Source: Anaerosoma tenue (GTDB taxonomy: Bacteria; Actinomycetota; Coriobacteriia; Anaerosomatales; Anaerosomataceae). Taken from it: DNA of 64,000 bases. Below, piece after piece: positions 3,773 through 32,204 of this stretch (the stretch's first letter is position 1; each line of letters starts with the position of its first letter). The stretch covers positions 124,001 to 188,000 of the forward strand of contig NZ_JALNTY010000001.1 in the NCBI RefSeq assembly GCF_023161965.1, given 5' to 3'. Both the position numbers and the translations under genes were made by a program. The notes beneath the pieces were generated by a model. It searched no databases, was not told where the DNA came from, and saw only the letters and a program-made list of their open reading frames with translations.

Positions 3773-3801
3773 GCGCGACCGATGTGAAGGAGTCGATGGA
3801 G

Positions 3802-5663: not shown

Positions 5664-5664
5664 G

Positions 5665-6243
5665 GTGGCGACGTCGTACGAGGCCGCACAGGCCGCCATC
5701 ATCGAGCGCCTGTCCCCTGAAGCGGCGCGGCACTGCGAGCGTGTGGCGTCGGTCGCCGCCCGCCTGGCGCAGCGCCACGGCCTCGACGCCGAGGAGGCGC
5801 GGGTGGCCGGACTCCTGCACGACTGGGACCGGGAGACCCCGGGAGCGGAACTGCTCCGGCGGGCGGAGCGGCTCGGGCTGCCCGTGACGGATACGGACCG
5901 CGCGGTCCCGTATCTGTTGCACGGCCCTGTGGCCGCGGCCGAGATCCGCGAGGTGTTCCCGGAGTTGAGCGACACGGCGGTGGAGGCGATCGGAGCGCAC
6001 ACGTTCGGGGCTCCGCACATGGGGGCGCTTGCGATGGTCGTCTACATTGCCGACGTGATCGAACCCGGCCGCACCCATGACGGCGTTGGGCTGCTGCGCG
6101 AGCGCGCGGAGAGCGCGGGGCTGGCGGAGGCGTTCGCCGATGCGTATGCGGCCTCGGTCAGGCACATCGTGAAGCGTCGCAAGCCCATCCATCCCACCAC
6201 GGTGGACGTATGGAACACCTATGTGGCCGGTGACGGCCGATGA
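5665..6243 (+). CDS. yqeK: YqeK-family HD-domain phosphohydrolase
   Basis: HD-superfamily metal-dependent hydrolase; YqeK proteins hydrolyse diadenosine tetraphosphate symmetrically. The 192 residues carry the first histidine in HCERV (H23), the HD pair in LLHDWD (H52, D53), and later LLHGPVAAAEIRE and GAHTFGAPHM, as in the family. Start GTG 5665 lies one base after the nadD stop. The C-terminus contains KRRKPIHPTTVDVWN. Sits between nadD and an LCP-like gene, the common genomic order for yqeK. Confidence 0.9.
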   Translation: MATSYEAAQAAIIERLSPEAARHCERVASVAARLAQRHGLDAEEARVAGLLHDWDRETPGAELLRRAERLGLPVTDTDRAVPYLLHGPVAAAEIREVFPELSDTAVEAIGAHTFGAPHMGALAMVVYIADVIEPGRTHDGVGLLRERAESAGLAEAFADAYAASVRHIVKRRKPIHPTTVDVWNTYVAGDGR

Positions 6244-7415
6244 GCAGGCGGTCGCGCACCAACAGCGACGCCGTCACGCAACGACCGGCCAACGGGTCGG
6301 ACTACCCGCGACGCCGCAGCCAGAGCGCGGCGGAGCCGCAACCCCAGGGATGGCGCGCTACCAAGCGGTCGTCGAAGCTCGGACACAAGGTCCGTCGTCA
6401 GCAGAAGGCCGAGCGGCTGAAGTCGAGCGTCCGTGACGGCGCACGCGCCACGCGGAACACGGTGATCGCGACCCTGCAGGTGATCGGCATGGCTGTCGGC
6501 GGGGTGCTGGCCGTGCTGGTGGTGCTCTTCGTCCTTGCCCTTGGCGTCAACGCCGGTGCGCGCTGGCTCGCCGAGCGCGAGGCCCGTGAGGAGGCCTCGC
6601 CCGAGGCGCAGGCAGAGAAGGCCGAGGAGAACCTCGTCGTCATCGGCAAGAACGGTGACGGGAGCGCGGAGTTCCTCGCGGTCCGGCTCGATGAGGAAGG
6701 CGAGCAGATCCTCGGCATCGGCATCCCGAGCGGCGCGTTCATGGAGGTGCCCGGTCAGGGTTTCGAGCGGGTCGGCGACAGCCTGTCCGGAGGGCCGGGC
6801 GTCTCGCTGGCCGCGATATCCAACTACCTGAGCATCCCGTTCGAGCATTACGTGGTCGTGGATGTTGCGATCTACCAGGACGCGATGACGAACCAGAGCC
6901 TTCGCACGGTGATGGAGAACCTCCAGGAGACAGACCTCTCGGAGGAGGATCGGGCGCGGATCGCCGGGTTCATCGAGGGCGTGAAGGGTGAGCGCACGGC
7001 TTTGGTGCCCCTGCCGGTGCGGCCGATCGACCTGGGCGGGGAGACGTTCTTCGAGCCACAGCGCGATCAGATCTCGGACCTGCTGCTGCAGTGGTGGGGT
7101 GTCCGCCTGGGCGCCGAGGACACCAGCGTACGGGTGATCCTCTATAACGGCTCCGGTACGCCGGGTATCGCGGGCGAGGCCGCTCAGCAGGTGATCGCCG
7201 CGGGTCTGCGCGTGGTGGACACCAAGAATGCCGACCGCTTCGACTACGATACGACGCTGATAGTCGTGCAAAGCGGCGAGACCGCGCATGGAGAGCTGGT
7301 GCAGGTCGCGCTCGGCGTGGGCGAGATCGTCGAGAAGCGGTCGGAGCAAGAGGTGGCCGACGTGATCGTGATAATCGGCAGGGACTATCAGCCCGCTGCC
7401 GCGTCCGAACAGTGA
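6240..7415 (+). CDS. LCP-like membrane protein with LytR_C domain
   Basis: A 391-residue protein with a basic, disordered cytoplasmic N-terminus (1-72), one membrane helix (about 74-102), an extracytoplasmic LytR-CpsA-Psr-like region (about 134-270) and a C-terminal LytR_C domain (about 298-385, VRVILYNGSGTPGIAGEAA). Active LCP enzymes attach glycopolymers to peptidoglycan and need an IPRDT-type arginine. Here that site reads IPSGAF, so catalysis by the usual mechanism is doubtful. The start ATG overlaps yqeK by four bases (ATGA) and its stop overlaps rsfS. A structural or regulatory envelope role is inferred only. Confidence 0.8.
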   Translation: MSRRSRTNSDAVTQRPANGSDYPRRRSQSAAEPQPQGWRATKRSSKLGHKVRRQQKAERLKSSVRDGARATRNTVIATLQVIGMAVGGVLAVLVVLFVLALGVNAGARWLAEREAREEASPEAQAEKAEENLVVIGKNGDGSAEFLAVRLDEEGEQILGIGIPSGAFMEVPGQGFERVGDSLSGGPGVSLAAISNYLSIPFEHYVVVDVAIYQDAMTNQSLRTVMENLQETDLSEEDRARIAGFIEGVKGERTALVPLPVRPIDLGGETFFEPQRDQISDLLLQWWGVRLGAEDTSVRVILYNGSGTPGIAGEAAQQVIAAGLRVVDTKNADRFDYDTTLIVVQSGETAHGELVQVALGVGEIVEKRSEQEVADVIVIIGRDYQPAAASEQ

Positions 7416-7816
7416 GCCCGGGAAGGAGCGAACCACTGGAACCCCGTGAGATAGCGTTGCTGGCGGCCTCGGCGGCCATGTCCAAGAAGGCGATCGACCC
7501 GGTCGTGCTCGACGTGGCCGAGACGCTCGTCATCACGTCGTACTTCGTGATCGCGAGCGGCGGCAGCGACCGACAGGTGGCGGCGATCGCCGACGAGGTG
7601 GAGAAGGTCCTGCGAGAGCAGGCCGGCGTGAAGCCGATCGGACGCGAGGGGGAGCGGGAACGGGAATGGGTCCTGCTCGACTTCGCCGACGTGGTCGTAC
7701 ATGTGTTCCAGCCGGAGGAGCGTGAGTTCTACCGGCTCGAGAAGTTGTGGTCCGACGCGCCGCGGCTGGAGCTGCCCGCCGAGGAGGGCCCGCTGGACCC
7801 GGTGGACGACAGGTGA
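7412..7816 (+). CDS. rsfS: Ribosomal silencing factor RsfS
   Basis: RsfS binds ribosomal protein uL14 and blocks joining of ribosomal subunits when nutrients fall. The ~130 residues match the family throughout (KKAIDPVVLDVAETLVITSYFVIASGGSDRQVAAIADEV..., DFADVVVHVFQPEEREFYRLEKLW). GTG 7412 overlaps the previous stop as GTGA but has no SD. A CTG at 7436 has a good AGGAG (7424-7428) seven bases upstream, so the true start may be the rare CTG. The stop overlaps the next gene's GTG. Confidence 0.94.
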   Translation: MSPGRSEPLEPREIALLAASAAMSKKAIDPVVLDVAETLVITSYFVIASGGSDRQVAAIADEVEKVLREQAGVKPIGREGEREREWVLLDFADVVVHVFQPEEREFYRLEKLWSDAPRLELPAEEGPLDPVDDR

Positions 7817-8748
7817 GACCCGCGTTCAGGGTGTACGGCATCCAGCTCGCCCTCGTAGGGGTGGCGGCGATCTGGGGCGGCACGTTCGTCATGGTCAAGG
7901 ACGCCGTGGAACGCTACCCCATGTACGCGTTCCTGGCGCTGCGGTTCGCGATCGCTGTCGTGGCCTTCGCGGTGGTGTTTCCCGCTTCGGTGCGCAGGCT
8001 CCGTGCCGGTACGATCGGCGTCGGTCTTCTGGCGGGGCTCCTGCTGACGGCCGGCTACGTCTTCCAGACCTGGGGCCTTCAGGACACCTCGGCGTCGAAA
8101 GCGGCGTTCATCACGGGCATGTTCGTGGTGATCACGCCCGCGCTCCAGGCGCTCGTGCTCAGACGGATGCCGCGCACCACCACGATCGTCGGCGTGGCGC
8201 TTGCCGTTGGCGGGCTGTGGCTGCTTTCAGGCGGCGGGGGCGGGGAGTGGAACATCGGCGACACACGGGTGCTGTTGTGCGCCTTCGCTTATGCGGCGCA
8301 CATGATCGTGCTCGGCGGCGTGGGCAGGAAGCACGAGGTGCAGCCGCTCACGCTTGTGCAGCTTGCCACCGTAGGCATCGTGACCGGTGCGATCTCGCTG
8401 CTCACCGAGCCGCGTGGCATGCCGGGAGACGGTGGCGTCTGGGCCGCGCTCGTGCTCACCGGTGTGTTCGCCTCGGCGGTGGCCTACGCGATCCAGACGT
8501 ACGCTCAGCGGTTCTTGTCCCCCGCCAAGACCGCGCTCATCCTCATCATGGAGCCCGCGTTCGGCGGGGTCTTCGGGTGGCTCGCGGGCGAGCGGCTCGG
8601 AATAGGCGGCCTGGCCGGCAGCGCGCTCATCCTGGCAGGGATGGTCGTGGCCGAGGTAGTGGGCGCCCGGACCGCCGGTGACGCCGAGGTGGCGCTGGAA
8701 CCGTCGATCGAGGGTCCGCCGCTGATCGTGGAGGACGACGGCCCCTGA
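7813..8748 (+). CDS. EamA/DMT-family transporter
   Basis: A 311-residue hydrophobic protein of the drug/metabolite transporter superfamily with two EamA halves, each of about five helices. The first half begins GIQLALVGVAAIWGGTFVMVKDAVERYP and the second contains FAYAAHMIVLGG...FASAVAYAIQTYAQRFLSPAKTALILIMEPAFGGVFGWL, both typical. Substrate cannot be predicted. Start GTG 7813 overlaps the rsfS stop (GTGA), so it is co-translated although functionally unrelated. An in-frame upstream GTG (7747) lies inside rsfS and was rejected. The tail after residue 290 is acidic and hydrophilic. Confidence 0.88.
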   Translation: MRPAFRVYGIQLALVGVAAIWGGTFVMVKDAVERYPMYAFLALRFAIAVVAFAVVFPASVRRLRAGTIGVGLLAGLLLTAGYVFQTWGLQDTSASKAAFITGMFVVITPALQALVLRRMPRTTTIVGVALAVGGLWLLSGGGGGEWNIGDTRVLLCAFAYAAHMIVLGGVGRKHEVQPLTLVQLATVGIVTGAISLLTEPRGMPGDGGVWAALVLTGVFASAVAYAIQTYAQRFLSPAKTALILIMEPAFGGVFGWLAGERLGIGGLAGSALILAGMVVAEVVGARTAGDAEVALEPSIEGPPLIVEDDGP

Positions 8749-8780
8749 GAATGGGCGGGGGAGCAACGTGCGCGTACCCG

Positions 8781-8830
8781 TTGACGCGTGATACCAGGGG
8801 GGGTATCGTTGGGATACCCCATGAGGTATC
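8781..8830 (+). promoter_or_regulatory. Promoter with double palindromic operator before the FAD/Fe-S gene
   Basis: TTGACG (8781-8786) and TATCGT (8804-8809) are 17 nt apart. Superimposed are two copies of GATACC-N6-GGTATC, at 8790-8807 and 8813-8830, spaced 23 bp. The first covers the -35/-10 spacer and the start of the -10; the second covers the likely transcription start. The first copy read on the minus strand is GATACC-CCCCCT-GGTATC, which resembles the C-tract operators of CsoR/RcnR/CstR-type repressors. No such regulator is encoded in the window. Confidence 0.6.
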
Positions 8831-8888
8831 GGCACGCGTGGTACCCGTGGGCTGAGAACCACTGATGCCGGCACGGGAAGGACCACGT

Positions 8889-11800
8889 ATGGCTGCGGTA
8901 AGCGAACGGGTCGAGAGACAACTCGGGGAGATCTTCGGTGATCGGATGCGTACCGATCGCGTTGAGCGCAAGCTCTACTCCTCGGACATCGGGGCGATGC
9001 CCCGGCTGATCAAGCCGCTCGTACCCACCGGGATCGCTGGCGCGATCGTGCGCCCGGTGAGCGAGGACGAGGTCGTGGCGCTCATGCGGGTGGCGCGCGC
9101 CGAGCGCGTGCCGGTGGTGCCGCGCGGGATGTCGACATCCGGTTACGGTGGCGTGCTTCCGGTGGAAGGCGCGATCGTGGCGGATATGTCGGCCATGGGC
9201 GGTCTTATCTCGGTGGACGCGGAGCGGATGACCGTGCGCGTCTTCGGCGGGACGCTTTGGGAGCCGCTGCAGAAGCAGCTCAACCGCAAGGGGCTCGACC
9301 TGCTGCTGTACCCGTCGTCGTTGCCGTCCTCCACGGTGGCCGGCTGGTTCGCCCAGGGCGGCGCCGGATTCGGAAGCTACGAGCACGGCTTCTTCAAGGA
9401 GAGCGTTCACTCGGCGCGTGTCGTGCATCTCGACGGCGCCGTGAAGGAGTACACCGGCGAAGAGCTCGAGCAGATCGTCGCCGATGCCGAGGGCATCACC
9501 GGCATCATCACCGAGATGGAGATCGGCATCCGCGCCCTCGAGGACGAAGTGCACCGCGTCCTCGCGCTCCCCACGAACGAAGCGCTGCAGAAGGCGCTCT
9601 CCGCGATCTCGGCCGAGAAGCTGCCGATCTGGTCGCTCACGTTCCTCAATCCCGAGTCGATCAAGCTCAAGAAGACCCTCCCGCATCGCCATGGTCACCC
9701 GTACGAGATGGCGCACGAGCACTATGAGCCCGTGCTGCCCGAGGAGTTCCTCGTGGTGATCGCGTACCCGGCGTCGCGTCACGAGGCGATCGATGCGCCG
9801 CTGCGCGCGATCCTCGAGGCCGCAGGCGGTACCGAGCTCGACGCCGAGGCGGCCGAGCACGAATGGGAGCTCCGCTTCGCGCCGATGCGCCTCAAGCGCG
9901 TGGGACCGTCGATCGTGCCCACCGAGGTCGTCGTGCCGCTCGACCAGCTCGGCGAGGTGCTCGGCAAGATCGATTCACGCGTGAAGCAGCCGTTCGTGCT
10001 GGAGGGCATGCTCGGCAAGGGTGACAAGGTGGTCCTGCTCGGCTTCATCCCGCACGACGAGCGCTCGCTCGCGTTCAACATCGCATTCGCCCTGTCGCTC
10101 GTGGTGATCAAGATCGCCAACGAGCACCGCGGCGGCGCGTACTCCACGGGTCTGTACTTCCGGCAGGAGGGTAAGAAGGTCCTCGGCCAGGCCAAGATCG
10201 CGGCCCTGGAGGCGTTCAAGCGCGCCAAGGACCCGGGCGACCTGCTCAACCCGAAGAAGGTCCTCGGTACGAGCCTGCTCAACGGCTTCATGAAACTCGC
10301 GCTGGCCTTCGAGCCAGTCGTGCGCCCCATCGCCAATCTCGCCACTCCGCCCGACAAGGTCGAGTCGCTCGAGACCAAGAACGGCGTACCCGGCGACGTG
10401 GCCTTCTACAGCTACGCGTGCGCCCAGTGCGGCTACTGCGTGCCCACCTGCGAGGAGTACAGCGTGCGCGGCTGGATGAGCCACTCGCCGCGCGGGAAGT
10501 ACGCATACCTCAAGGAGGTTATCGAGGGCCGGGAGAAGATCGACCAGAAGATGGTGGACACCTTCCTCGTGTGCACCACCTGCGAGGTCTGCAACACCCG
10601 CTGCCAGCTGCAGCTGCCGGTGGAGCACTCCTGGATGTCGATGCGCGGCCAGCTCATCCACGAGGAAGGTCGCATGACCTTCCCGCCGTTCGAGATGATG
10701 GGCGCGGCGCTGCAGGGGCAGCTCAACATCTGGGCGGGCAAGCGCGAGAAGCGTGCCGACTGGATGCCCGAGCACATCGCCGAGAAGATCGACCCCACAT
10801 CGGATGTGCTGTACTTCGCGGGCTGCACCGCAAGCTACGTGAACACCGACGTGGCCAAGTCGTCGGTGGAGCTGCTCGACGCCGCGGGCGTGAAGTTCAA
10901 CTACATGGGTACCGATGAGGCGTGCTGCGGCATCCCGATGAAGGTCTCCGGCAAGTGGGACGTCTTCGAGGAGATCTACGAGCACAACACCGCCGAGGCG
11001 CGGAAGCGCGGCGCCAAGACGATCGTGACGTCATGTCCCGCGTGCGGGCTCGTGTGGAAGGAGCTCTACGCCGACATCGCCGCCGAGCGCGGGGAGGCGT
11101 ACGAGTTCGAGGTGAAGCACTACTCGGAGATGGTGGCCGACGCGATCGCTGAGGGAGCGCTGGAGTTCACGCACGAGGTGGACAAGAAGCTCACGTTCCA
11201 CGACTCGTGCCACATGGGTCGTGCGCAGGGCAACTACGAGCCGCCGCGCGATATGCTCAAGGCGATCCCGGGCGTGGAGCTCGTCGAGATGGAGCACAAC
11301 CGGGAAGAGGGTCTGTGCTGCGGCTCGGTGCTCACGCTCATCGGCGAGACGCCGGTGGCCCCCGAACTCGGCAAGATGCGTCTGGACGAGGCGGTCGACG
11401 TGCAAGCCGACGCGATGGTGGCGCTCTGCCCGTGCTGCCAGGTGCAGCTGCGCGACTCGGCCGACAAGCGCGACATCCCGATGGAGGTCATCGACCTCGC
11501 GCACGTGGCGATGGACGGCCTCGGCATCGCGCATGAGGATCCGAGCCCGTACGCCAAGGAGATGTGGGGCTACTTCGAGAAGTTCATCTGGCTCATGAAG
11601 CCCGAGTCGATCACGAGCATCATGGTCGCCATGCTGCCGGACATGATGAAGGCGATGCCGCCCGCGATGCTGCCGATGATGCGCGCGGCGCGTGCGGTGC
11701 CGGACGGCCTGGCGATGATGGGCAAGATGATGCCCGCCATGATGCCGAAGATGATGCCGTCGATGATGCCCAAGGTCATGCCGGCGATGCTTGAGGAAGT

Positions 11801-12020
11801 CTCGCGCCGCGTGGGGCCGCTGCCGGAGGACATGGAAGAGCTCATGCCCGACCTGCTGCCCAAGACGATGGATGCGCTGCTGCCCAACATGCTGCCGCTG
11901 ATCATGGACGACTTCGTACCCAAGATGCTGTGCTACATCAAGCATGAGTGGGAGCGTGACGTGCCCGCAGGCGAGTCGCCGTGCGCACAGGCGTCACGCG
12001 CCACGGTGCAGGAGTCGTAG
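8889..12020 (+). CDS. FAD-linked oxidase / 4Fe-4S / CCG-domain fusion oxidoreductase
   Basis: A 1043-residue cytoplasmic or membrane-peripheral oxidoreductase. Order: FAD-binding type 4 (GlcD-like) domain and C-terminal FAD-oxidase cap (about 1-480); two ferredoxin-like 4Fe-4S motifs, CAQCGYCVPTC from residue 511 and CTTCEVCNTRC from 562; two HdrD/GlpC-type CCG domains with CCGIP at 679 and CCGS at 810; then a striking Met/Pro-rich tail (903-1009) with about 27 methionines. The layout is that of D-lactate/glycolate/2-hydroxyacid dehydrogenases that pass electrons to quinone or an Fe-S partner. The substrate is unknown. ATG 8889 follows GGAAGGA (8876-8882) and is preferred to ATG 8865. Probably controlled by the operator just upstream. 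Confidence 0.88.
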   Translation: MAAVSERVERQLGEIFGDRMRTDRVERKLYSSDIGAMPRLIKPLVPTGIAGAIVRPVSEDEVVALMRVARAERVPVVPRGMSTSGYGGVLPVEGAIVADMSAMGGLISVDAERMTVRVFGGTLWEPLQKQLNRKGLDLLLYPSSLPSSTVAGWFAQGGAGFGSYEHGFFKESVHSARVVHLDGAVKEYTGEELEQIVADAEGITGIITEMEIGIRALEDEVHRVLALPTNEALQKALSAISAEKLPIWSLTFLNPESIKLKKTLPHRHGHPYEMAHEHYEPVLPEEFLVVIAYPASRHEAIDAPLRAILEAAGGTELDAEAAEHEWELRFAPMRLKRVGPSIVPTEVVVPLDQLGEVLGKIDSRVKQPFVLEGMLGKGDKVVLLGFIPHDERSLAFNIAFALSLVVIKIANEHRGGAYSTGLYFRQEGKKVLGQAKIAALEAFKRAKDPGDLLNPKKVLGTSLLNGFMKLALAFEPVVRPIANLATPPDKVESLETKNGVPGDVAFYSYACAQCGYCVPTCEEYSVRGWMSHSPRGKYAYLKEVIEGREKIDQKMVDTFLVCTTCEVCNTRCQLQLPVEHSWMSMRGQLIHEEGRMTFPPFEMMGAALQGQLNIWAGKREKRADWMPEHIAEKIDPTSDVLYFAGCTASYVNTDVAKSSVELLDAAGVKFNYMGTDEACCGIPMKVSGKWDVFEEIYEHNTAEARKRGAKTIVTSCPACGLVWKELYADIAAERGEAYEFEVKHYSEMVADAIAEGALEFTHEVDKKLTFHDSCHMGRAQGNYEPPRDMLKAIPGVELVEMEHNREEGLCCGSVLTLIGETPVAPELGKMRLDEAVDVQADAMVALCPCCQVQLRDSADKRDIPMEVIDLAHVAMDGLGIAHEDPSPYAKEMWGYFEKFIWLMKPESITSIMVAMLPDMMKAMPPAMLPMMRAARAVPDGLAMMGKMMPAMMPKMMPSMMPKVMPAMLEEVSRRVGPLPEDMEELMPDLLPKTMDALLPNMLPLIMDDFVPKMLCYIKHEWERDVPAGESPCAQASRATVQES

Positions 12021-12097: not shown

Positions 12098-12173
12098 GGG
12101 GCCATAGCTCAGCTGGGAGAGCGCATGGCTGGCAGCCATGAGGTCAGGGGTTCGATCCCCCTTGGCTCCACCA
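12098..12173 (+). tRNA. tRNA-Ala (anticodon GGC)
   Basis: A 76-nt cloverleaf with encoded CCA. Acceptor GGGGCCA pairs with TGGCTCC (one G-U). The D-arm has TAGCTCAGCTGGGAGAGC. The anticodon stem-loop is CATGG-CTGGCAG-CCATG, giving anticodon GGC. The T-arm has AGGGGTTCGATCCCCCT. Confidence 0.97.
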
Positions 12174-19548: not shown

Positions 19549-19815
19549 TCAGGCGTCCATGCCGTTCACCTTGGTCATCACGCCCGACTTGCGGTTGGCC
19601 GCCTGGTTGGGGTGGATGACACCCTTGCTTGCGGCCTTGTCGAGCGCGCGGTTGGCGGCGTGAGCCGCCTCGAGGGCCGCGCTCTTGTCGCCGGCGGCCA
19701 CGGCCGCGTCGACCTTCTTGATCGCGGTCTTCAGCCCCGAACGGACCGCCTTGTTGCGGATGCGCGCCTTCTCGTTGGTGAGGATGCGCTTCTTCTGGCT
19801 CTTGATGTTTGCCAC
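19549..19815 (-). CDS. rpsT: Ribosomal protein bS20
   Basis: 30S subunit protein that binds 16S rRNA. The 88 residues from [21 protein letters not shown] to the C-terminus match bS20, including the [19 protein letters not shown] end. The GTG at 19815-19813 has GGAGGAA upstream on the minus strand; the frame runs 39 codons further without similarity. It is the only ribosomal gene on the minus strand here, set between holA and the cytochrome genes, in the same place and orientation as in Bacillus. Confidence 0.97.
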
Positions 19816-20022
19816 GTCGGTTGTTCCTCCAGCCTCATAACGATGGTGCCCGTCGCAGTGGGGTGCGTACGAACCGCGCAAGGATAGCACACGCGCTCGG
19901 GCGGTGCTACCGGACAGCCGTCTGGACAACACGGCACGTAGTTTGCATTATCTTCGAGTAAGGTTAACGAATATGAGAGACACTTAGCGTCCGCATGGAC
20001 GTCGAGGGGGACTCCCGCCAAC
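19816..20022. other. Divergent intergenic region rpsT / cytochrome
   Basis: 207 bp between divergently transcribed genes. It must hold the rpsT promoter (minus; TATCCT at 19886-19881, weak -35) and one for the cytochrome genes. TTGCAT (19943-19948) with TAACGA (19965-19970) is a weak candidate for the latter. The 19940-19985 part is AT-rich compared with its surroundings. Confidence 0.4.
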
Positions 20023-21090
20023 ATGTCACGCCTGCGAGAAGGACGGGTCCTCCCGTTGGCCGTCGTGCTTGTCATGACGATCTTCTGGGCTGCATCGTCT
20101 CGCCCTGCGGCGGCCTATCCCGACTGGGATCCCGCGCCCTCTCCACTGGCCGCGGAGGACTGCGACCACTGCCACTCGGCCACGAGCTCGGGCGGTACCG
20201 CGGAATGGGACGGCAGTGGACCGCATGGAGGCTACCTCACCAGCACGAACAAGTGTCAGTTGTGTCACGTGGTGCACAAGTCGCCGAGTGATTCGGTGGT
20301 GTTGCTGCGTACCACCACGGTGACCGGGATGTGCATCATGTGCCATGACGGCACCGGGAGCTCGATCGGCGTCTACTCTACGATCGAGGCTCATGGGGGC
20401 ACCGTGGCCGCCGAGCACCGTGTGGAGGTAACCGACATCGTCCCGGGCGGATCGAGCGCCCTGGGCAGCGCGCTTGGGTGCTCCGACTGCCACTCCGTAC
20501 ACGGTTCGAACACGGTCGCTCCTTTCTTGCGGGACAGTGGTCGCGCGTACGCAGCGGATGAGTACGTCATCTCAGACTGCCTGCTTCGCAACGACGTACG
20601 TTCCGGGGTGCCGGACTCCGTTCCCGAGTACGGAGCGCTCTGGTGCGCAGCCTGTCACGATGAGCGCCACTCCGGGTCGGGCACGACCGTCAACCATCCT
20701 GTGGACGGCGATTCGTCGTGGGGCTACGGGGACGTTCGCTCAACGATCCGTACGGACGACTCCTGGCGCGAGGCGCTCACCGGGGGAGTGGCTACAGGCA
20801 TGGGTCGCACGAACAGCGGTTACCTGATGGCACCTGTGGAGTCTGCCGGTGACGGGCGGATCGAGGAGGTCGACCGGCGTGATCCCATGTGCCAGCAGTG
20901 CCACGAGGACGCCCGAGACGTGGAAACCGTGTTCAGTGCCGATTACACGATGCGGGGGACCGAACCCTGGAACACACCCGTGAACCCGGTCTTCGTCACG
21001 TTCCCGCATCAGACGACCAACGACATGCTGTTGGTTGAGCAGTACGACGACCTCTGCACGAACTGCCACCCGGTGACGGGACTGCCTTAG
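20023..21090 (+). CDS. Secreted seven-haem c-type cytochrome
   Basis: A 355-residue exported protein with a signal peptide (LPLAVVLVMTIFWAASSRPAAA, cleavage near residue 32) and seven CxxCH haem c sites: CDHCH 47, CQLCH 78, CIMCH 104, CSDCH 153, CAACH 208, CQQCH 290, CTNCH 345. Several are followed by VHK, VHG or DxxH residues that may serve as distal ligands. The sequence between sites is poorly conserved and no named subfamily could be assigned, though it resembles doubled-CxxCH proteins. Start ATG is at 20023. It ends about 80 bp before the giant cytochrome and is probably co-transcribed. Role inferred: electron transfer outside the cytoplasmic membrane. Confidence 0.9.
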   Translation: MSRLREGRVLPLAVVLVMTIFWAASSRPAAAYPDWDPAPSPLAAEDCDHCHSATSSGGTAEWDGSGPHGGYLTSTNKCQLCHVVHKSPSDSVVLLRTTTVTGMCIMCHDGTGSSIGVYSTIEAHGGTVAAEHRVEVTDIVPGGSSALGSALGCSDCHSVHGSNTVAPFLRDSGRAYAADEYVISDCLLRNDVRSGVPDSVPEYGALWCAACHDERHSGSGTTVNHPVDGDSSWGYGDVRSTIRTDDSWREALTGGVATGMGRTNSGYLMAPVESAGDGRIEEVDRRDPMCQQCHEDARDVETVFSADYTMRGTEPWNTPVNPVFVTFPHQTTNDMLLVEQYDDLCTNCHPVTGLP

Positions 21091-21169
21091 ACGACTGAAG
21101 GTGTTGGCCGGGCGTGAATGGATGACCGGACCGGAAGACGGTGCTGCGAGACTCGCAAGGGAAGAGATG

Positions 21170-24100
21170 ATGAAGCGTTCAGGCGCTATGCGTATTGCGG
21201 TCCGGTCGTTCGTGGCGCTGGCGATCGCGCTGGCGGTGGTCCTGCTTGTGGCGCCGGGCGACAGCACGCCGTCACAGGATGGGCCAGTGAGTGACGATGC
21301 GGTCGCTGACGCGCGGATCGGCGGCGGTTCCCTCGACGCGGAGGTGCACTCGCTTCAGGAGTCCCCTATGCCCTCCGATGGCGTGACACGATCCGGCGAC
21401 GCGATCGCGGTGGAGCCGCCACCCGTCGCAGCGGTGATTCCCGATGTCGATGCAGGGGAGGCCGAGTCCCCGGCGCCCGGCGATCCGGCGGAGGGCTCCG
21501 ATGATCCGGCCGAGGATCCTGCCGATCCAGCCGACGAGCCCGCTGATCCCGGCGATGATCCCCCCGGTTCCGGTGACGAGCCGGACGATCCTGCTGATAC
21601 CCCCACTGACCCTGGCGAGGAGCCCGCCGACCCGGGCGCGGACCCCGGCGATGATCCGGACGCACCGGCAGAGCCGCCGTCGACGCCGGCTGCGCCAGGC
21701 GTTGTCACCGCCGTAACGTGCGTCTCTGGTGACATGACGGACATCGTGCGGTTCGACCTGCCTGACGATGGTGGTGACGTGAGCGCCATCGTGCTCTCCC
21801 GTGCCCTTTCTCCGGAAGGACCGTACGAGGAGGTGCGCTCGGCCGACGGTGGTGTACGGGAGATCCGTCATGCGGTCGAGTCCACGGGCACGGCGTACTA
21901 CCGCGTCCATGCCGAGGGCCCCGGCGGGCAGGGCGAGAACAGCGCGATCGTGCGTAACGCAGTGGTGGAGGCGACGGCAGAGGTAGGCGTGGACGGGTAC
22001 ACGATCCGGTCCTCCAACGGCGAGATCGTCCTGGCATTCCCCGCAGGCGCGTACGAGGAGACGACGACCGTGAACGTCCGGGAGGTATCCGGGTCCCCGG
22101 TCGGCGGTATCCTCGCGTTCGCCGGCATCTACGACATCGAACCGTCCGGCCCGCTTGGGAAGCCTGTGCTCCTGTCGGTGGCGTTCGACCTGGCGGTGAC
22201 GCATTTCCAGGTCTCTGACGCGTTGCTTCGGGCGGCGGGTCTGTTCACGTTCGATGACGGCGCGTGGGTTTCCGGAGCCGACCACATCATCGCCGAGGGT
22301 GGCTACATCACCGGCTCGGTGGATCACTTCTCGGCATGGACTCCCGGCTCCCCGTCGCCTCACGGCACCAACGCCGAGGCCAGCGACTACTGCTCCGGCG
22401 TCTGTCACGACCTCAGCACGTATCCCGGTTCGTCTGTCCGGTACGACACCCGGGACCCCCAGGTCTGCTACAACTGTCACGGTAACGCCGATGCCGCCGA
22501 CCCGCCTCGCAGCGGCGAAGGCGACAACGTGCAGGCGGAGTTCTTCGACGTGGCGGGGCAGAGCGTGCCGGCGATGTCCTCGCGTCACCCGGTGGCCAAC
22601 GGCGGTTTCTACTGCACGCTGTGCCACGATCCCCACGGCACGTCATCCGATTCCCCCGGGCTGCTCAGGGCGTGGGACCCTGCTACAGGCGGTTACGTGC
22701 AAGGCGGCGCCGGAACCGCGCCCGGCAACGCGTACTGCTGGACCTGCCACGGACCGAGCAGCAACCGCCGCGTCAACTACTACGTGAACGGCTACTACAG
22801 CAGCACCGGTGGTGACCACAAGACGCTCCTTGAGGGGACGCCTCACGCCTCGCTTTCCACAACGGGCGGCACGATCGCCTGTCTCGCCTGCCACGTCTCG
22901 CACGGTTCCGTGTCCAGCTCGCTGGCAAAGGTGGGAGACGTGGCGGGTGCAGCCGCAACGGGCAACGACCAGAGCCTCTGCCTCGCGTGTCACGCAGACG
23001 CATCAGGCGGGTATTCGGGTGGCGCGGCGTACGGCATGACCAGACACTCCTCGGTGGCGGTCTCAAGCGTCGCCGCAACGGGATGGCCCACGTCCGACTC
23101 GGCGACGGGCTCCTGCCAGAACTGCCACGATCCGCACGGAGGGGCCGGCGGACAGTACCTGAGGGCGTCCGGTGCGGACCTGTGCCACGGCTGTCACGAT
23201 GTCGCCGGCCTGTCCTACCCGGCCGACTACTCCTATCAGGGTACTGCGGCGTACGGCGCATCGGGTCACGCGGGTCTCACGGGCACGCTCGGGTATCTCG
23301 GCTTGAGCACCACCAGCGAGGGTTTCGCGGCATGGCAGTCGAGCGCCATGCCCACACCGTCGGCACCCGGCACACCGATCACCGACGCTGGGGCGATCGA
23401 TCAGGTTCGCTCGATGGACGGGTCTCGGCTGCGCACGCTGCTGCAGGGGACGACCGGGTCGGACGACTACCAGATGTTCCGCTTCAAGGTGCCCGCGCCG
23501 AGCGCCGAGGTGGTGAACGCCACACTGCGCTGGGCCGGCTATGGCGAGGAGACGGCGGGGTATCCCGTCACGCTCTCGGTCTGGTCGGCCACCGCGTTGG
23601 CGTGGGAGCAGGCGGCAAGCCAGGTGATGGGCACGCAGCAGCTCGTGACGGTCCCACTTCGGCCCGCCGACCATATGGATGCCGAGGGATACGTGTACTT
23701 CCTTGCCGGGGCGCGCCATGTGGTGGACGGCGAACTCATCTCAGGCCCCACGTTCACCAAGGTCAGCGACACGTCCATCAAGGTCGAGTGGACCACAGCC
23801 GGTAACACGTCAAGCTGGGTGGACTACGGGACCACCACCGCGTATGGCAGCAGCGCCGGGACCGGGACCCGCACGACATCCCACTCGGTCACGGTGACCG
23901 GGCTGACCGCCGGCACCTGGCACTTCCGCGTCCGTTCCACCTCGCCACAAGGCGAGGACTACGTATCCGGGGACTACGCATACGGGTTCCCCATGCCCAA
24001 GCTCACGACTCCGTATCCTGCGAGCCACGTATACGATGGGACCACGGTGTCGCGCTCGTTCTACTGGGAAGCGATGAGCGGTGCGGCCGGTCCCTACGAG

Positions 24101-27100
24101 TACCGGTTCCAGCTGTGGCGCGACGGCTCGCTGTTGATCGACGCGCCGTGGGGCTCTTACACGTCGTACACGTACAGCGACATCCGTGATGTGGCCAGCT
24201 ACGCCTGGCGTGTCGAGGTGCGGGACGCACAGGGTCTGTCGTACGGATGGTCCGTGTGGCACCGCTTCTACGTGTATGAGGACTCCGGCTCCTGCCCGTT
24301 CCTGTTCACCTGGGACGGGGAGCGGTTCGCCTTCGAGGCCGACCTGTTCGGTCCCGGCAAGCTGGCGCTCAAGACCAAGAGCGGCTACATGAAGCCCACC
24401 CCTGATGACGTCTACGTCCTCGCGCACGAGCCGCAGCTCGTCGACGGACGCATCGACCTGCGGCTTGTGGAGGAGCGCTTCGAGACCGACTACCTCGACG
24501 AGCTCGCCCTCTACGCCATCGACGTGCCGGAAGGCCGCGACGTCTATGCCGAGAAGCGCGAGGCGGGAGGCGCAGCCTTCGGGGGCGTGACAAGCGTGCT
24601 GCATACCGTGGCGCGCGAGATGGCGTCCCCGGTCTCGGCGGTCCACACCCAGACGGGTCGTGACGTGCTTGCGCTCGTGGCCGCCGACGACGGCGAGCAG
24701 GTCGTCCTCAACGAGGACCGCAACGAGGACTTCACCTACCAGACCATCGAGCTCGACCTGGGAGAGGTGGCGGGCGCCGGGCAGCTCAAGGTCGTGATGG
24801 ACGCGGTCTCGATGTTCCCGGACACCCCGGCCGGCACCGCGCGTGCCTCGACCTTCGGGCCCCGCACCAGGCTCGAGGTGCAAGACGCCGCCGGCGCGTG
24901 GGTGGCGGTGCCGGCCTCCGCAGGCGCGCTTCCCAAGCCGCCGGAGTTCAGCCGCCCCTACGTCTTCGACCTGAGCGACATCTGGGTCTCGGAGAGCAGG
25001 AAGGTCCGCTTCACGTTCCTGATGAAGACCTACGTCGACTGGATCGCGATCGACACCACAGAAGACCTGCCGGTCGCGGTGACCGAGGTGCCGCTTGCCT
25101 CCGCGGTCCTCACCGAGCGCGGCTACGACCCGAAGTCCTCCGACGGGGAGATCTACGAGTACGTCTACGGTGAGCCGAGCGGGCGCACCGGCTACTTCCC
25201 CGGCGCCTATACGAGACTCGGCGAGGTCGCCCCGCTGCTCGCCGCCACAGACGACATGTTCGTCATCTACGGCGGCGGCGACGAGCTGCAGCTGTCCTTC
25301 GAGACGCCCGACGCACCCGCAGACGGCACCTCGCGCCGCTACGCCGTCCACACCAACGGCTACTACAAAGACGCCAAGACCGACGTGGACACCACGGTGG
25401 AGCCGCTGCCCTTCGCCGCGATGAGCACGTTCCCCTACGGCGCAGACGAGCACTACCCCGACGACCCCGAACATGAGGCCTACCGCGCCGAGTGGAACAC
25501 GCGCGTGAAGAGCGGGGGAGCCTCTGTGGTCGCGCAGATCGCGGGACCTGCGAGCCTGGTACCCAGGCTGACGGGGGTCCACGGGTGGGTCGGGGCTGCG
25601 CTCGCGACCGTGTCGGCCGATGTGGAGCCCGTGGCCGAGATAGCCGGCTCCGCCGATACCGTTGCCGTGGAGGGGTATCCCGTCGACCACCGATCGCTCA
25701 ACACCGACCTCGTCTCCCTGGATGTGTCGTTCACGGGTGCCGCGGGCGGGGGAGAGTGCGGGGTGTGCCACAACGTCCACGGTGGCTCGGAGAGCGGTAT
25801 CGCTCTCGATGGTGGTCGCGCCGCGAGCGACGGTCGTACGTGTACCGCCGACGGCACGGGCGGCTGTCACAGCAATGCCGCCAACTCCGCCTCCGGTATC
25901 GACATCCACGATCGTTTCACCGCGAACGCTGATCCTCGCGCGCACCATGACGTCTTCGCGTCGGACCAGGTGAAGACGGGCAGCAGGATCGGGTGCGCCG
26001 ACTGCCACGACCCCCACACCAACAACAGCGAACAGCGCTACTCGGATCCCGACGCGATCTCTCAGCCGGTGAGTTCGGCTCTGGGCTCTCTCATCGGTGA
26101 GGATGGCTCGGTGTACATGCTCGTGGGCGCGGCCCATGATGGCGTACCGCCGGTGATCAGCGGCGCGCGGTTGAACGGTGCAGGGGACCAGTATCTCTCG
26201 CCGACGATCACGTGGACCACCGACGAGAAGGCCACGTCGTGGGTCGACTGGGGTCTGACGACCGCGTACGAGATGGGCAACGCGAGCGCGGGAAGCCCGT
26301 TCGGCAACGACACCCTCGTGACGGCGCACTCCGTGCAGATGACCGGGCTGCAGGATGGTGTCGTGTACCACTATCGCATCAGGACCGCCGACGCACTCGG
26401 GAACGTCGCGTACTCGGCCGACATGACCTACGTTCCAGTGGCGCCTCCAGCAGCACCGGTGATGAACGATCTGGTCTCCGTGTCGGGCACCGGCTGGGGT
26501 CCGATCACCGCTACTCTGGGGTGTACGCCCACCACATCCAGCGACGGTCACGCAGTCCAGTACCAGTTCAGGGTGGACGGCAGCTCGGTGTACGTGTCGG
26601 GATGGCTGGACTCCACGAGCTTCACCACGCCGGCGTGGCTGTACACGGGGACCCACTATGCGCAGGTGCGCGCCCGTGACGCCGTTCATACTGACGCGAT
26701 CTCCGCATGGTCGGCGGCCGACCACTTCGATGTCCTGTACGCGGACGCCTCCGGCTCCTGCCCGTTCCTGTTCACCTGGGACGGGGAGCGGTTCGCCTTC
26801 GAGGCCGACCTGTTCGGTCCCGGCAAGCTGGCGCTCAAGACCAAGAGCGGCTACATGAAGCCCACCCCTGATGACGTCTACGTCCTCGCGCACGAGCCGC
26901 AGCTCGTCGACGGACGCATCGACCTGCGGCTTGTGGAGGAGCGCTTCGAGACCGACTACCTCGACGAGCTCGCCCTCTACGCCATCGACGTGCCGGAAGG
27001 CCGCGACGTCTATGCCGAGAAGCGCGAGGCGGGAGGCGCAGCCTTCGGGGGCGTGACAAGCGTGCTGCATACCGTGGCGCGCGAGATGGCGTCCCCGGTC

Positions 27101-29032
27101 TCGGCGGTCCACACCCAGACGGGTCGTGACGTGCTTGCGCTCGTGGCCGCCGACGACGGCGAGCAGGTCGTCCTCAACGAGGACCGCAACGAGGACTTCA
27201 CCTACCAGACCATCGAGCTCGACCTGGGAGAGGTGGCGGGCGCCGGGCAGCTCAAGGTCGTGATGGACGCGGTCTCGATGTTCCCGGACACCCCGGCCGG
27301 CACCGCGCGTGCCTCGACCTTCGGGCCCCGCACCAGGCTCGAGGTGCAAGACGCCGCCGGCGCGTGGGTGGCGGTGCCGGCCTCCGCAGGCGCGCTTCCC
27401 AAGCCGCCGGAGTTCAGCCGCCCCTACGTCTTCGACCTGAGCGACATCTGGGTCTCGGAGAGCAGGAAGGTCCGCTTCACGTTCCTGATGAAGACCTACG
27501 TCGACTGGATCGCGATCGACACCACAGAAGACCTGCCGGTCGCGGTGACCGAGGTGCCGCTTGCCTCCGCGGTCCTCACCGAGCGCGGCTACGACCCGAA
27601 GTCCTCCGACGGGGAGATCTACGAGTACGTCTACGGTGAGCCGAGCGGGCGCACCGGCTACTTCCCCGGCGCCTATACGAGACTCGGCGAGGTCGCCCCG
27701 CTGCTCGCCGCCACAGACGACATGTTCGTCATCTACGGCGGCGGCGACGAGCTGCAGCTGTCCTTCGAGACGCCCGACGCACCCGCAGACGGCACCTCGC
27801 GCCGCTACGCCGTCCACACCAACGGCTACTACAAAGACGCCAAGACCGACGTGGACACCACGGTGGAGCCGCTGCCCTTCGCCGCGATGAGCACGTTCCC
27901 CTACGGCGCAGACGAGCACTACCCCGACGACCCCGAACATGAGGCCTACCGCGCCGAGTGGAACACGCGCGTGAAGAGCGGGATCCAGGGTGGCGACGCT
28001 GCGGTTGCGGCGACTGCATCCGCATCTGAAGCGGCGCCCACCGTATGGCGCACGGCGCACGTCGATTCTGCGGCCGCACCGCAGGCGCTCCAGTACTCGG
28101 TGGACACCGACGTGATACGGGTGATCGCTTACACCGACGGCGTTCCTGCCGTCCACGCGCCCGCAGCGGGATGGGAGACGTCTTCGCATACTGCGTCAGC
28201 GCCAACGCCGGCCTCGCCCGGATCGCCTGTGGATGCCGCGGCGCTCGGCCAGGTCTCGGTGTCGGACGACGCGTACTGGCGTACGGACCTGACGGCGGTC
28301 GACGGCGAGTGGAACTGGCAGGTCGTGAGGTTCGATCTGGATGCCGGCGCCGTGTACCAGCTCGATGGCCTCGCGCTCGACTGGGAGGGTCACGGTGAAC
28401 CGACACCCGGGTACCCGACCGCACTGTATGTCTGGGATCCCGAGAGTGGTGCGTGGGCGGAGCTCTCACGTGCGGACATGCCCGTGGACCGGAGGGTGCA
28501 GGTGCAGCGCAGCGCGGTGAGCGATGGGTACTGTCTCGCGTGCCATGATGGAGACGCCCCGGAGGGGGTCGTCATTCCCGGGTCGGTGGGCGATGTGGGC
28601 GCAACGTGGGCGACGGACTTCCACGGCGGCCGTGCGGGGAACGGATTCGGAGACGCGGGCCTCAAGTTCCCATACAGCCGTGGGCAGTCGCCACTATCAT
28701 GCGCGACATGCCACGACACGCACGGGTCGGCCAGTCTCTATCACGTGCCGGAGGTCGTGAACGGGACATCCGTTCCTACGATCACCACGAGCGGGATGGC
28801 CCCCCTGTGCAAGGCGTGCCATGAGGGAGCTACGTACGACTGGCACCTCGATACGGCCTGCTGGTGTCACTACGTGCCGCTGTGGGAGCCCGTGTACCAC
28901 GATGCTGCCTTCGAGTTGCACGACGGGATCGACTGCCTGCAGTGCCATGGGCACGGGAAAGGGTCGACCCATCCGGCGGTGGATTGCGAGGACTGTCATG
29001 GCAGCGCGCCACGGGGCGTGCGCGCCTTCTAA
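21170..29032 (+). CDS. Giant multidomain multihaem c-type cytochrome (2620 residues)
   Basis: An exported protein with an N-terminal hydrophobic helix (about 10-32) and a Pro/Asp-rich linker (about 95-175). A ZU5-like beta domain (about 265-390) follows. Fourteen CxxCH haem sites fall in three clusters: residues 433, 482, 523, 571, 604, 649, 672; 1530, 1609; and 2455, 2511, 2547, 2589, 2606. Irregular candidates are CSGVCH (408), CWCH (2564) and a CX7CH (1558). Between clusters lie two fibronectin-III-like domains (...SSWVDYGTTTAYG; ...TSWVDWGLTTAYE), each followed by a beta domain and then a 411-residue unrecognised module starting CPFLFTWDGERFAFEADLFGPGKL. The two modules (1039-1449, 1861-2271) appear identical. 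No C-terminal anchor is visible. ATG 21170 follows AAGGGAAG; ATG 21167 is equally possible. Role inferred: long-range extracellular electron transfer or a surface redox scaffold. Confidence 0.88.
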   Translation: MKRSGAMRIAVRSFVALAIALAVVLLVAPGDSTPSQDGPVSDDAVADARIGGGSLDAEVHSLQESPMPSDGVTRSGDAIAVEPPPVAAVIPDVDAGEAESPAPGDPAEGSDDPAEDPADPADEPADPGDDPPGSGDEPDDPADTPTDPGEEPADPGADPGDDPDAPAEPPSTPAAPGVVTAVTCVSGDMTDIVRFDLPDDGGDVSAIVLSRALSPEGPYEEVRSADGGVREIRHAVESTGTAYYRVHAEGPGGQGENSAIVRNAVVEATAEVGVDGYTIRSSNGEIVLAFPAGAYEETTTVNVREVSGSPVGGILAFAGIYDIEPSGPLGKPVLLSVAFDLAVTHFQVSDALLRAAGLFTFDDGAWVSGADHIIAEGGYITGSVDHFSAWTPGSPSPHGTNAEASDYCSGVCHDLSTYPGSSVRYDTRDPQVCYNCHGNADAADPPRSGEGDNVQAEFFDVAGQSVPAMSSRHPVANGGFYCTLCHDPHGTSSDSPGLLRAWDPATGGYVQGGAGTAPGNAYCWTCHGPSSNRRVNYYVNGYYSSTGGDHKTLLEGTPHASLSTTGGTIACLACHVSHGSVSSSLAKVGDVAGAAATGNDQSLCLACHADASGGYSGGAAYGMTRHSSVAVSSVAATGWPTSDSATGSCQNCHDPHGGAGGQYLRASGADLCHGCHDVAGLSYPADYSYQGTAAYGASGHAGLTGTLGYLGLSTTSEGFAAWQSSAMPTPSAPGTPITDAGAIDQVRSMDGSRLRTLLQGTTGSDDYQMFRFKVPAPSAEVVNATLRWAGYGEETAGYPVTLSVWSATALAWEQAASQVMGTQQLVTVPLRPADHMDAEGYVYFLAGARHVVDGELISGPTFTKVSDTSIKVEWTTAGNTSSWVDYGTTTAYGSSAGTGTRTTSHSVTVTGLTAGTWHFRVRSTSPQGEDYVSGDYAYGFPMPKLTTPYPASHVYDGTTVSRSFYWEAMSGAAGPYEYRFQLWRDGSLLIDAPWGSYTSYTYSDIRDVASYAWRVEVRDAQGLSYGWSVWHRFYVYEDSGSCPFLFTWDGERFAFEADLFGPGKLALKTKSGYMKPTPDDVYVLAHEPQLVDGRIDLRLVEERFETDYLDELALYAIDVPEGRDVYAEKREAGGAAFGGVTSVLHTVAREMASPVSAVHTQTGRDVLALVAADDGEQVVLNEDRNEDFTYQTIELDLGEVAGAGQLKVVMDAVSMFPDTPAGTARASTFGPRTRLEVQDAAGAWVAVPASAGALPKPPEFSRPYVFDLSDIWVSESRKVRFTFLMKTYVDWIAIDTTEDLPVAVTEVPLASAVLTERGYDPKSSDGEIYEYVYGEPSGRTGYFPGAYTRLGEVAPLLAATDDMFVIYGGGDELQLSFETPDAPADGTSRRYAVHTNGYYKDAKTDVDTTVEPLPFAAMSTFPYGADEHYPDDPEHEAYRAEWNTRVKSGGASVVAQIAGPASLVPRLTGVHGWVGAALATVSADVEPVAEIAGSADTVAVEGYPVDHRSLNTDLVSLDVSFTGAAGGGECGVCHNVHGGSESGIALDGGRAASDGRTCTADGTGGCHSNAANSASGIDIHDRFTANADPRAHHDVFASDQVKTGSRIGCADCHDPHTNNSEQRYSDPDAISQPVSSALGSLIGEDGSVYMLVGAAHDGVPPVISGARLNGAGDQYLSPTITWTTDEKATSWVDWGLTTAYEMGNASAGSPFGNDTLVTAHSVQMTGLQDGVVYHYRIRTADALGNVAYSADMTYVPVAPPAAPVMNDLVSVSGTGWGPITATLGCTPTTSSDGHAVQYQFRVDGSSVYVSGWLDSTSFTTPAWLYTGTHYAQVRARDAVHTDAISAWSAADHFDVLYADASGSCPFLFTWDGERFAFEADLFGPGKLALKTKSGYMKPTPDDVYVLAHEPQLVDGRIDLRLVEERFETDYLDELALYAIDVPEGRDVYAEKREAGGAAFGGVTSVLHTVAREMASPVSAVHTQTGRDVLALVAADDGEQVVLNEDRNEDFTYQTIELDLGEVAGAGQLKVVMDAVSMFPDTPAGTARASTFGPRTRLEVQDAAGAWVAVPASAGALPKPPEFSRPYVFDLSDIWVSESRKVRFTFLMKTYVDWIAIDTTEDLPVAVTEVPLASAVLTERGYDPKSSDGEIYEYVYGEPSGRTGYFPGAYTRLGEVAPLLAATDDMFVIYGGGDELQLSFETPDAPADGTSRRYAVHTNGYYKDAKTDVDTTVEPLPFAAMSTFPYGADEHYPDDPEHEAYRAEWNTRVKSGIQGGDAAVAATASASEAAPTVWRTAHVDSAAAPQALQYSVDTDVIRVIAYTDGVPAVHAPAAGWETSSHTASAPTPASPGSPVDAAALGQVSVSDDAYWRTDLTAVDGEWNWQVVRFDLDAGAVYQLDGLALDWEGHGEPTPGYPTALYVWDPESGAWAELSRADMPVDRRVQVQRSAVSDGYCLACHDGDAPEGVVIPGSVGDVGATWATDFHGGRAGNGFGDAGLKFPYSRGQSPLSCATCHDTHGSASLYHVPEVVNGTSVPTITTSGMAPLCKACHEGATYDWHLDTACWCHYVPLWEPVYHDAAFELHDGIDCLQCHGHGKGSTHPAVDCEDCHGSAPRGVRAF
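24283..25516 (+). repeat. 1234-bp intragenic direct repeat, copy 1
   Basis: From CTCCGGCTCCTG (24283) to AGCGGG (25516). It matches copy 2 at a constant offset of 2466 bp. Translations in all frames of both strands that I compared are the same, so silent positions match too. Encodes the 411-residue CPFLFTWDG module. Confidence 0.93.
26749..27982 (+). repeat. 1234-bp intragenic direct repeat, copy 2
   Basis: Second copy of the repeat at 24283-25516. Similarity stops sharply at both edges: the base before the shared CTCCGG and the base after AGCGGG differ between copies. Confidence 0.93.
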
Positions 29033-29119
29033 GCGGTTCCGGCGCGTGTCGCGCATGGATGGAGGGGACGGGGCGTCGCTCTACCAGCGGCGCTCGCACC
29101 CTGTTATCCTTACGCTCCG

Positions 29120-30922
<1,803 letters not shown>

Positions 30923-30989: not shown

Positions 30990-32204
30990 ATGGGGGGAAC
31001 ATCCGGCCGTATCGCTATGCCATGGGACGATCCGCGTCCCTCACTACCGAGGCACCTCTACGTCCACGTACCGGTATGCCGGTCCAAGTGCGCGTACTGC
31101 GATTTCTACTCCCGCGCCGACCTGGGTACCGGGGACCATCCCCGGCTGGTGCGCCACACGCTGGGACTGCTGCGGGGATGGCTGATACCCGAGGTCCGTC
31201 GTGCCCCGCTGCAGACGTTGTACCTGGGCGGCGGTACCCCCACCGTACTGGGCGACGAGCTCGTGACGCTCATCAAAGGCGTGCAGGCGATGGTCCCCTT
31301 CACCGATGACATCGAGGTGACTGTGGAGGCCAACCCGGAGTCGTTGACGCCGGAGCTTGCGGAGTCGCTCGCCGACGCTGGCGTCACACGCGTGAGCGTA
31401 GGCGTGCAGTCGCTCGACGATGACGCCCTCCGGCGGTTGGACCGCCGGCATGACAGCGCATCCGCCCTGGCTGCGCTCCGCTCGGTCGCCGAGGCCGGCA
31501 TGCAGCCTTCGGCCGATCTGATGTGCGGCATCCCCGGCGTGAGCGCCGATACATGGGAGCGCTCGCTCGAGGGCGTGGTGGAGGCCGGCGCGGTGCACGT
31601 GTCGGTGTATCCGCTCACGGTGGAGCAGGGGACGCCGTTGGCCGCGCGGATCGCCGCCGGTACGGCCGACGCTCCCGATGAGGACGCGGTCGTGGACGGC
31701 ATGGACGCCGCCGCCCGCTCGCTCGGGACGTTCGGGTTCGAACGGTACGAGGTGGCGAACTACGCGATGCCCGGACACCGGTCGCGGCACAACACCGCCT
31801 ACTGGACGGGACGCCCGTATATCGGGGTGGGTGGCGGTGCGCACGGGATGCTCGACGTGGCGCATGCGCAGGCGTGCACGCTCGCTCCCGACGATGGCCG
31901 TGACGTGGCCCGCGTCCGCTACTCATACGTGAGCGACCCGTTCCCGGGCGACCAGCCCTCGCCGCTCGCATCGCTCGAGTTGCTGACGGTGCTCGACGCC
32001 GCCCGCGAGGACGCGATGCTCGGCATGCGGATGACGGATGGTATCGATGAAGGGGTCGCGGAACGCGCCGGGGTGACTGATGTGATGCGGTCGCTTGCCG
32101 ATGACGGGCTGGTGAGCCACGACGATGGCAGGTGGCGGCCGACCGCGCGTGGCTGGCTTCTCGGCAACGAGGTCTTCGGGCGCATCTGGAACGCCGGGCG
32201 CTGA
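30990..32204 (+). CDS. hemW: HemW-like radical SAM protein (haem chaperone)
   Basis: Radical SAM protein of the HemN/HemW family. The 404 residues show the SAM [4Fe-4S] motif CRSKCAYC (C30, C34, C37), YLGGGTPT, the GVQSLDD strand, and a C-terminal HemN_C winged region. HemW proteins bind haem and pass it to acceptors; they lack coproporphyrinogen oxidase activity. The Cys-x3-Cys-x2-Cys motif without a fourth cysteine two residues later fits HemW rather than HemN. ATG 30990 follows AAGGGGG (30978-30984). A haem chaperone beside multihaem cytochromes is suggestive, but lepA-hemW adjacency is ancient. Confidence 0.9.

Follow-up and report, generated by a model that had tools for sequence, protein, structure and literature searches.

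The window analysed here is a 64,000-nucleotide stretch of the genome of Anaerosoma tenue (G000; 2.1 Mb in 6 contigs, 99% complete), in which a row of conserved genes is interrupted by two cytochrome ORFs, such that the row reads leuS-comEA-comEC-holA-rpsT(-)-cyt1-cyt2-lepA-hemW-hrcA-dnaJ. The first-pass annotation had placed two multihaem cytochromes on the plus strand between rpsT and lepA, and these are confirmed as ORFs at 20023-21090 and 21101-29032. The conserved gene order that it described around rpsT-lepA-hemW-hrcA-dnaJ is likewise upheld by the rows of relatives, and the Bacillus counterpart of the gap is presumably gpr-spoIIP. The features of the locus are:

19549-19815, minus strand: rpsT, gene for ribosomal protein S20; bounds the gap on the left
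19812-19910, no strand assigned: conserved rpsT-side flank (rpsT 5' region), 99 bp with 94% identity to G093
20023-21090, plus strand: cyt1, predicted secreted seven-haem cytochrome of 355 aa; 7 CxxCH and 6 invariant further histidines
21101-29032, plus strand: cyt2, giant multihaem cytochrome ORF of 2643 aa; judging from the sequence, the true start is probably the ATG near 21167
21710-22387, plus strand: cyt2 N-terminal domain, marker of the slot type; without a Pfam match; carried by 14 of 149 genomes of the class
24284-25513, plus strand: first copy of the cyt2 module, 410 aa; absent from Pfam; structure model pLDDT 92.2
26750-27979, plus strand: cyt2 module copy 2; DNA tract identical to copy 1
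29102-29110, plus strand: extended -10 motif TGTTATCCT, 9 nt ahead of the lepA ATG; pattern in 52 of 54 genomes
29120-30922, plus strand: lepA, right border of the gap
30990-32204, plus strand: hemW, the gene after lepA; placement independent of the cytochromes

A search of positions 12000-37000 against Rfam recovered nothing except a tRNA at 12098-12170, and a promoter and terminator scan of the gap gave one promoter-like and two terminator-like sites against 0.8 and 2.3 expected, which is no evidence for either. Elsewhere in the window, positions 8865-12020 encode a 1051-aa fusion of FAD-linked oxidase, 4Fe-4S and CCG domains, with a tail rich in methionine/proline repeats (MMPAMMPKMMP...).

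The seven CxxCH motifs of cyt1 are packed into 355 aa, and cyt2 has 14 CxxCH motifs together with one CX3CH and a CxCH spread across its 2643 aa. Both proteins pass the Pfam cut-off of 20.6 bits for the Paired_CXXCH_1 family (PF09699; 64.6 bits for cyt1 and 79.2 for cyt2), and cyt2 additionally reaches 39.2 bits against the MtrC/MtrF domain II/IV family (PF22113), for which cyt1, at 14.7 bits, lies under the cut-off of 30. Since these cut-offs are passed, the haem motifs are not a chance occurrence. Weaker matches to fibronectin-like domains are also found in cyt2. Multihaem genes are present elsewhere in the genome, with 22 domain matches in all, and matches to the haem-attachment protein ResB occur in three places, one of them some 2 kb away from the main cluster of cytochrome genes. 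According to a study of two Anaerosomatales isolates, these encode 18 and 17 multihaem proteins that are scattered, with some clustered, and one of the two is an obligate Fe(III) reducer; lepA is not mentioned in its main text (PMC9686372).

The match to PF22113 links residues 503-679 of cyt2 to the outer-membrane decahaem cytochromes MtrC/MtrF; unlike these, cyt2 is far larger, has two extra non-haem modules and an actinobacterial host, and lies in a gap without a porin gene. The OmhA/OcwA surface cytochromes of the Gram-positive Fe(III) reducers Carboxydothermus and Thermincola, described as secreted multihaem proteins of monoderm metal reducers (PMC7829351), resemble cyt2 by that description; the latter differs in its 14-15 haem sites and its two modules. 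We also considered whether cyt2 is a decahaem reductase of the MtrC/OmcA kind, i.e., a compact protein with ten haems, and rejected this in view of its 14 CxxCH and one CX3CH motifs distributed over 2643 aa.

A profile of cyt1 searched against proteins of solved structure recovered OmcS (E = 1.3e-6) and 7tfs (E = 1.5e-6), which we take to be OmcE, and no others at E <= 0.001. The match to OmcS runs collinear through haems 2-5 of cyt1. A wider cyt1 profile gave weaker values (2.8e-5 for OmcS and 5.8e-4 for 7tfs), a single-sequence search of solved structures with cyt1 gave none at E <= 1, and the best match of the cyt2 haem region was again 7tfs, at E = 0.0078. The histidines of the haem motifs and exactly six others are unchanged across all 20 cyt1 sequences (all 18 at the first haem, where two rows are cut). 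A haem-free structure model of cyt1 attained a pLDDT of 32.6. The OmcS and OmcE nanowires of Geobacter share their haem packing and a ligand contributed by the neighbouring subunit (PMC9473688). They have six and four haems respectively, whereas cyt1 has seven; its likeness to them is to be taken as no more than a lead. We regard as improbable the extended reading that cyt1 is a nanowire-type cytochrome, with an OmcS/OmcE-like six-haem core, six conserved distal histidines and an extra N-terminal haem, in a Gram-positive-type actinobacterium, and travels with cyt2 as a giant surface anchor, its modules kept identical by conversion and the cassette repeatedly entering the row horizontally.

Within cyt2 lies an in-frame direct repeat, absent from the account of the first-pass annotation: positions 24283-25516 and 26749-27982 are identical over 1234 bp, with 0 mismatches as assembled. 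The repeat comprises two copies of a 410-aa module placed about 820 residues apart. In G025, which belongs to another genus, the two copies are 100% identical in protein and show 2 differences in 1265 bp, and the modules of G025 and G000 are 79.5% identical in protein. In both genomes, DNA identity drops from about 100% to about 50% at the module borders. A collapsed repeat would produce just such a flawless 1234-bp match, so the identical copies might be an assembly artefact in which one copy was duplicated or two were averaged. We think this quite improbable: in most relatives a module stands at each of the two positions, with a similar spacing of ~820 residues, and the independent assembly of another genus presents the same state with a different sequence. 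Intermediate stages are also seen, with the two copies within a gene being 80-81% identical in G013 and G028 and 74% in G051, and averaging could hide a few differences, not the 20-65% by which copies differ in other genomes.

The remaining two-module genes extend this series downward, to 56% identity between copies in G057 and G075, 51-52% in G045 and G077, 35% in G071 and 33% in G055 and G081. Copies are more alike within a gene than between genomes in G000 and G025 (100% within, 79.5% between) and in G051, whose copies share 73.9% with each other and no more than 67.6% with any others. It does not apply to G013 and G028, where the values are 81% and 80% within a gene and 93-94% between the two genomes, or to G045, G055, G057, G071, G075, G077 and G081. 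In G013 and G028, the two copies of each gene group together; G071, of the same genus, retains the old divergent copy 2. The duplication is older than the homogenisation, for there are two positions in most relatives, and a divergent copy-2 type is found in G055, G071 and G081. Only one module, of the old second type, is present in G003, which is missing the stretch ahead of that module, a state resembling what a deletion between the copies would leave.

Taken together, this pattern points most likely to recurrent homogenisation within one gene by gene conversion. The simplest account would be that copy 1 has repeatedly converted copy 2, in the lineages of G000, G025 and G013/G028 at the least and probably also in that of G051. 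Many columns of the module alignment are invariant, as might be expected if two old paralogous domains had stayed alike through strong purifying selection, with no conversion. We find this scarcely credible, because the identity extends to all silent sites (1234 of 1234 bp), the flanks are only about 50% alike and between genera these modules diverge by 20%. Gene conversion remains our preferred explanation, and the copied module is a stronger finding than the slot and hemW ideas considered below. A search of the open-licence PMC literature for multiheme cytochromes in conjunction with gene conversion found none. cyt2 is a naturally occurring example of a large domain that overwrites its duplicate inside a single gene, and, as homogenisation is seen in several lineages at different stages, its rate, borders and purpose can be studied.

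The module has no match to any Pfam family at E <= 1, and a Foldseek search with its AlphaFold model (pLDDT 92.2, pTM 0.91) returned nothing at E <= 0.001. Residues ~107-261 of the model align with galactose-binding jelly rolls (CBM32 and F5/8 type C) over ~108-138 residues with moderate Z-scores of 7-10, of which values below 8 can reflect a common arrangement, and a family missing from the list of fold matches is not thereby excluded. The likeness to CBM32 and F5/8 type C domains lies in this jelly-roll-like part, and a cyt2 relative without modules in G028 matches F5_F8_type_C, unlike the module itself; in that protein the domain is perhaps a replacement for the modules.

A scan of a genome collection recovered the module at no fewer than 77 loci, in at least 79 ORFs, at least 15 of which have three or more CxxCH motifs; it is also present in records named 'Anaerosomatales bacterium Yes46-06' and 'Coriobacteriaceae bacterium EMTCatB1'. 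Among the matches listed, module-bearing haem proteins of Desulfuromonadaceae, Pelobacter, Nitrospirae and Deltaproteobacteria have one module each, and two modules are seen in five ORFs, one of which is cut; all five come from records of Anaerosomatales, Actinobacteria, Actinomycetes or Coriobacteriia. In six of the module proteins without haem annotation, a scan showed repeats of the FG-GAP, TPR, fibronectin-like, beta-helix or other kinds. The same module is found, at roughly 29-36% identity, in extracellular FG-GAP/TPR/UnbV proteins of Planctomycetota, Cytophagales and related groups; these proteins differ from cyt2 in having no haems and a single module. A binding role outside the cell is likely to be the common theme of this module, which is common in environmental bacteria yet has no Pfam entry matching it.

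We then located LepA and S20 in 149 genomes of the class Coriobacteriia and read pieces of the row for 56 genomes of the order, the other 13 of its 69 genomes being without a row piece. Short contigs were counted solely where both neighbours of a junction were present, and a haem ORF was defined as one with at least three CxxCH. The rpsT-lepA junction contains haem genes in 6 of the 54 genomes where it is readable, a count that leaves out G022, in which cyt1 adjoins rpsT at a contig end. Haem ORFs are also found upstream of leuS (8/32), at hemW-hrcA (3/44), and once each at leuS-comEA (1/41), holA-rpsT (1/51) and lepA-hemW (1/50); there is none at comEA-comEC (0/45), comEC-holA (0/48), hrcA-dnaJ (0/43), dnaJ-rsmE (0/40) or rsmE-mtaB (0/39). 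At least one haem ORF lies on the row in 15 of 56 genomes. The multihaem genes of these genomes are scattered over many loci, at least ~5-12 per genome among the matches listed (a rough reading of seven genomes picked for having the locus). About 0.1 haem loci per genome would be expected on the 24-kb row against the 15/56 observed, a comparison that does not model relatedness and for which we claim no significance. With cytochrome genes at so many loci, the presence of one on a 24-kb row is only a few times above chance.

In other genomes the rpsT-lepA gap is empty or holds a gene for a metallophosphatase (G093, of the same genus as the window, G049 and G031) or a chorismate-binding enzyme (G013). 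The gap of G093 has no cytochromes, and its borders are conserved with those of G000 (rpsT side, 94% in 99 bp; lepA side, 96% in 25 bp). Seven spacers, from genomes without cytochromes or from beside cytochromes, yielded no convincing cytochrome remains, the best match being 31.9% over 91 aa (E = 0.007) in the metallophosphatase-holding gap of G049. The proposal that the cytochromes are dedicated occupants of an rpsT-lepA slot was accordingly rejected: haem genes are there in 6 of 54 genomes, unrelated genes occupy it in relatives, and the pair is found at other junctions. The open-licence PMC literature yielded nothing related on rpsT, lepA, hrcA and dnaJ together. The metallophosphatase gene of G093 (L028 454-1445, minus strand) is split over two frames, and is therefore probably a broken gene or a misreading or sequence error.

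In 52 of 54 genomes the extended -10 motif stands directly ahead of the lepA ATG regardless of the upstream content, against 0.26% in shuffled sequences; G119 and G010 are without it by the pattern used. As lepA keeps its motif irrespective of what is upstream, genes could enter the gap without lepA being cut from its promoter. The first-pass annotation had further drawn attention to the haem chaperone gene hemW next to the cytochromes. That the electron-transfer genes are here owing to their neighbours, with a functional tie to hemW and to the rpsT-lepA gap, might be argued from the shared strand, the close spacing to lepA-hemW and the retention of the pair on the row in family f1. We judge it very unlikely, given that rpsT-lepA-hemW is arranged identically in genomes without cytochromes, that the pair is found at other junctions and unrelated genes in this gap, and that lepA has its own start motif in nearly all genomes. 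The nearness of hemW is thus a matter of position and not evidence of function, and we see no link between the two.

The slot type of cyt2, recognised by its N-terminal domain, is present in 14 of the 149 genomes of the class, and all seven carriers in family f1, to which the window belongs, have it on the row. Hence in f1 the two genes are not scattered: they stay linked with one another and with the row, on which their orthologues lie at several junctions. Outside f1, G081 has a two-module cyt2 on a contig other than that of the row. A second type of cyt2, without the N-terminal domain, lies upstream of leuS in g4, g11 and G051, and off the row in G081. In G028 and G071, shorter cyt2 relatives without modules (L054 2087-6049 and L055 3536-7474) lie near cyt1 at other junctions. 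In G083, of another family, cyt2 and then cyt1 are adjacent on a short contig with a protein kinase gene next door, and the pair is therefore a unit beyond the row.

The cyt1 orthologues from rpsT-lepA, holA-rpsT, hemW-hrcA and leuS-comEA form one clade (100/99), set apart from those paralogues that were sampled. In the cyt1 tree, keeping together the species-tree groups G003+G028+G071+G022 (p-AU 0.0002) or G000+G045+G077+G119+G025 (p-AU 2e-6) is rejected, although these p-values are optimistic as the groups were tested after the first cyt1 tree had been seen. Moreover, the cyt1 of G022 pairs with that of G083 from the other family (100/98). Plain vertical descent of cyt1 is thus rejected by the tree. 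The conflict could nevertheless stem from old duplications and losses and not from transfer. On such an account, descent would be vertical, with many losses and local reshuffling (e.g., segments of the row duplicated in tandem and then lost at random) and no horizontal transfer. In its favour, all slot-type copies of f1 are on the same row, and a parsimony reconstruction with 7 changes for 8 occurrences, on a 52-taxon species tree without G119 and G091 (too few marker residues), fits losses as well as gains. Given the rejection of both groups and the pairing across families, we hold it possible but somewhat unlikely.

We favour, with a probability of about 0.62, the reading that cyt1 and cyt2 are a secreted extracellular-electron-transfer pair, an accessory cassette in a gap of a housekeeping row that has been exchanged, lost and relocated, with its modules homogenised by intragenic conversion. 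The two proteins likely function in extracellular electron transfer, to judge from their haem content; cyt1 would be a small carrier, and cyt2 a large surface protein in which haem domains alternate with fibronectin-like domains and the two modules. The latter, with a part that resembles jelly rolls, may attach to polysaccharide, cell wall or mineral. The cassette may have entered the gap between the promoters of rpsT and lepA, a placement in which insertion cuts no operon, and relatives would have swapped it horizontally, lost it or come to bear it at other row junctions. The two modules would have been divergent ancestrally and overwritten repeatedly, most likely by intragenic gene conversion, recently in the lineage of the window and separately in another genus. 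A conserved housekeeping row can, as this locus shows, host accessory cassettes at promoter-bounded gaps. The Anaerosomatales (OPB41) are widespread subsurface bacteria for which, to our knowledge, no route of electrons to minerals has been established, and the locus offers a defined gene pair with which such a route can be tested. No earlier account of the pair or of its module was found in the open-licence PMC literature.

Transposase-like ORFs occur in the rpsT-lepA gap of G030, a distant Coriobacteriia genome (L035 984-2426, minus strand; HTH_38 match only), and as an integrase-core (rve) transposase ~1 kb upstream of leuS in G022 (L236 1-1002); it would be a guess that such elements moved the pair. 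In G025 (L025 2055-3128 vs 2816-9751) and G071 (L096 3812-10352), cyt2 is read in two overlapping frames, pointing to a frameshift, a broken gene or a sequence error. Finally, G091 has two further stretches of the cyt2 N-terminal domain in tandem (L232 4675-10024), on a contig apart from the row.
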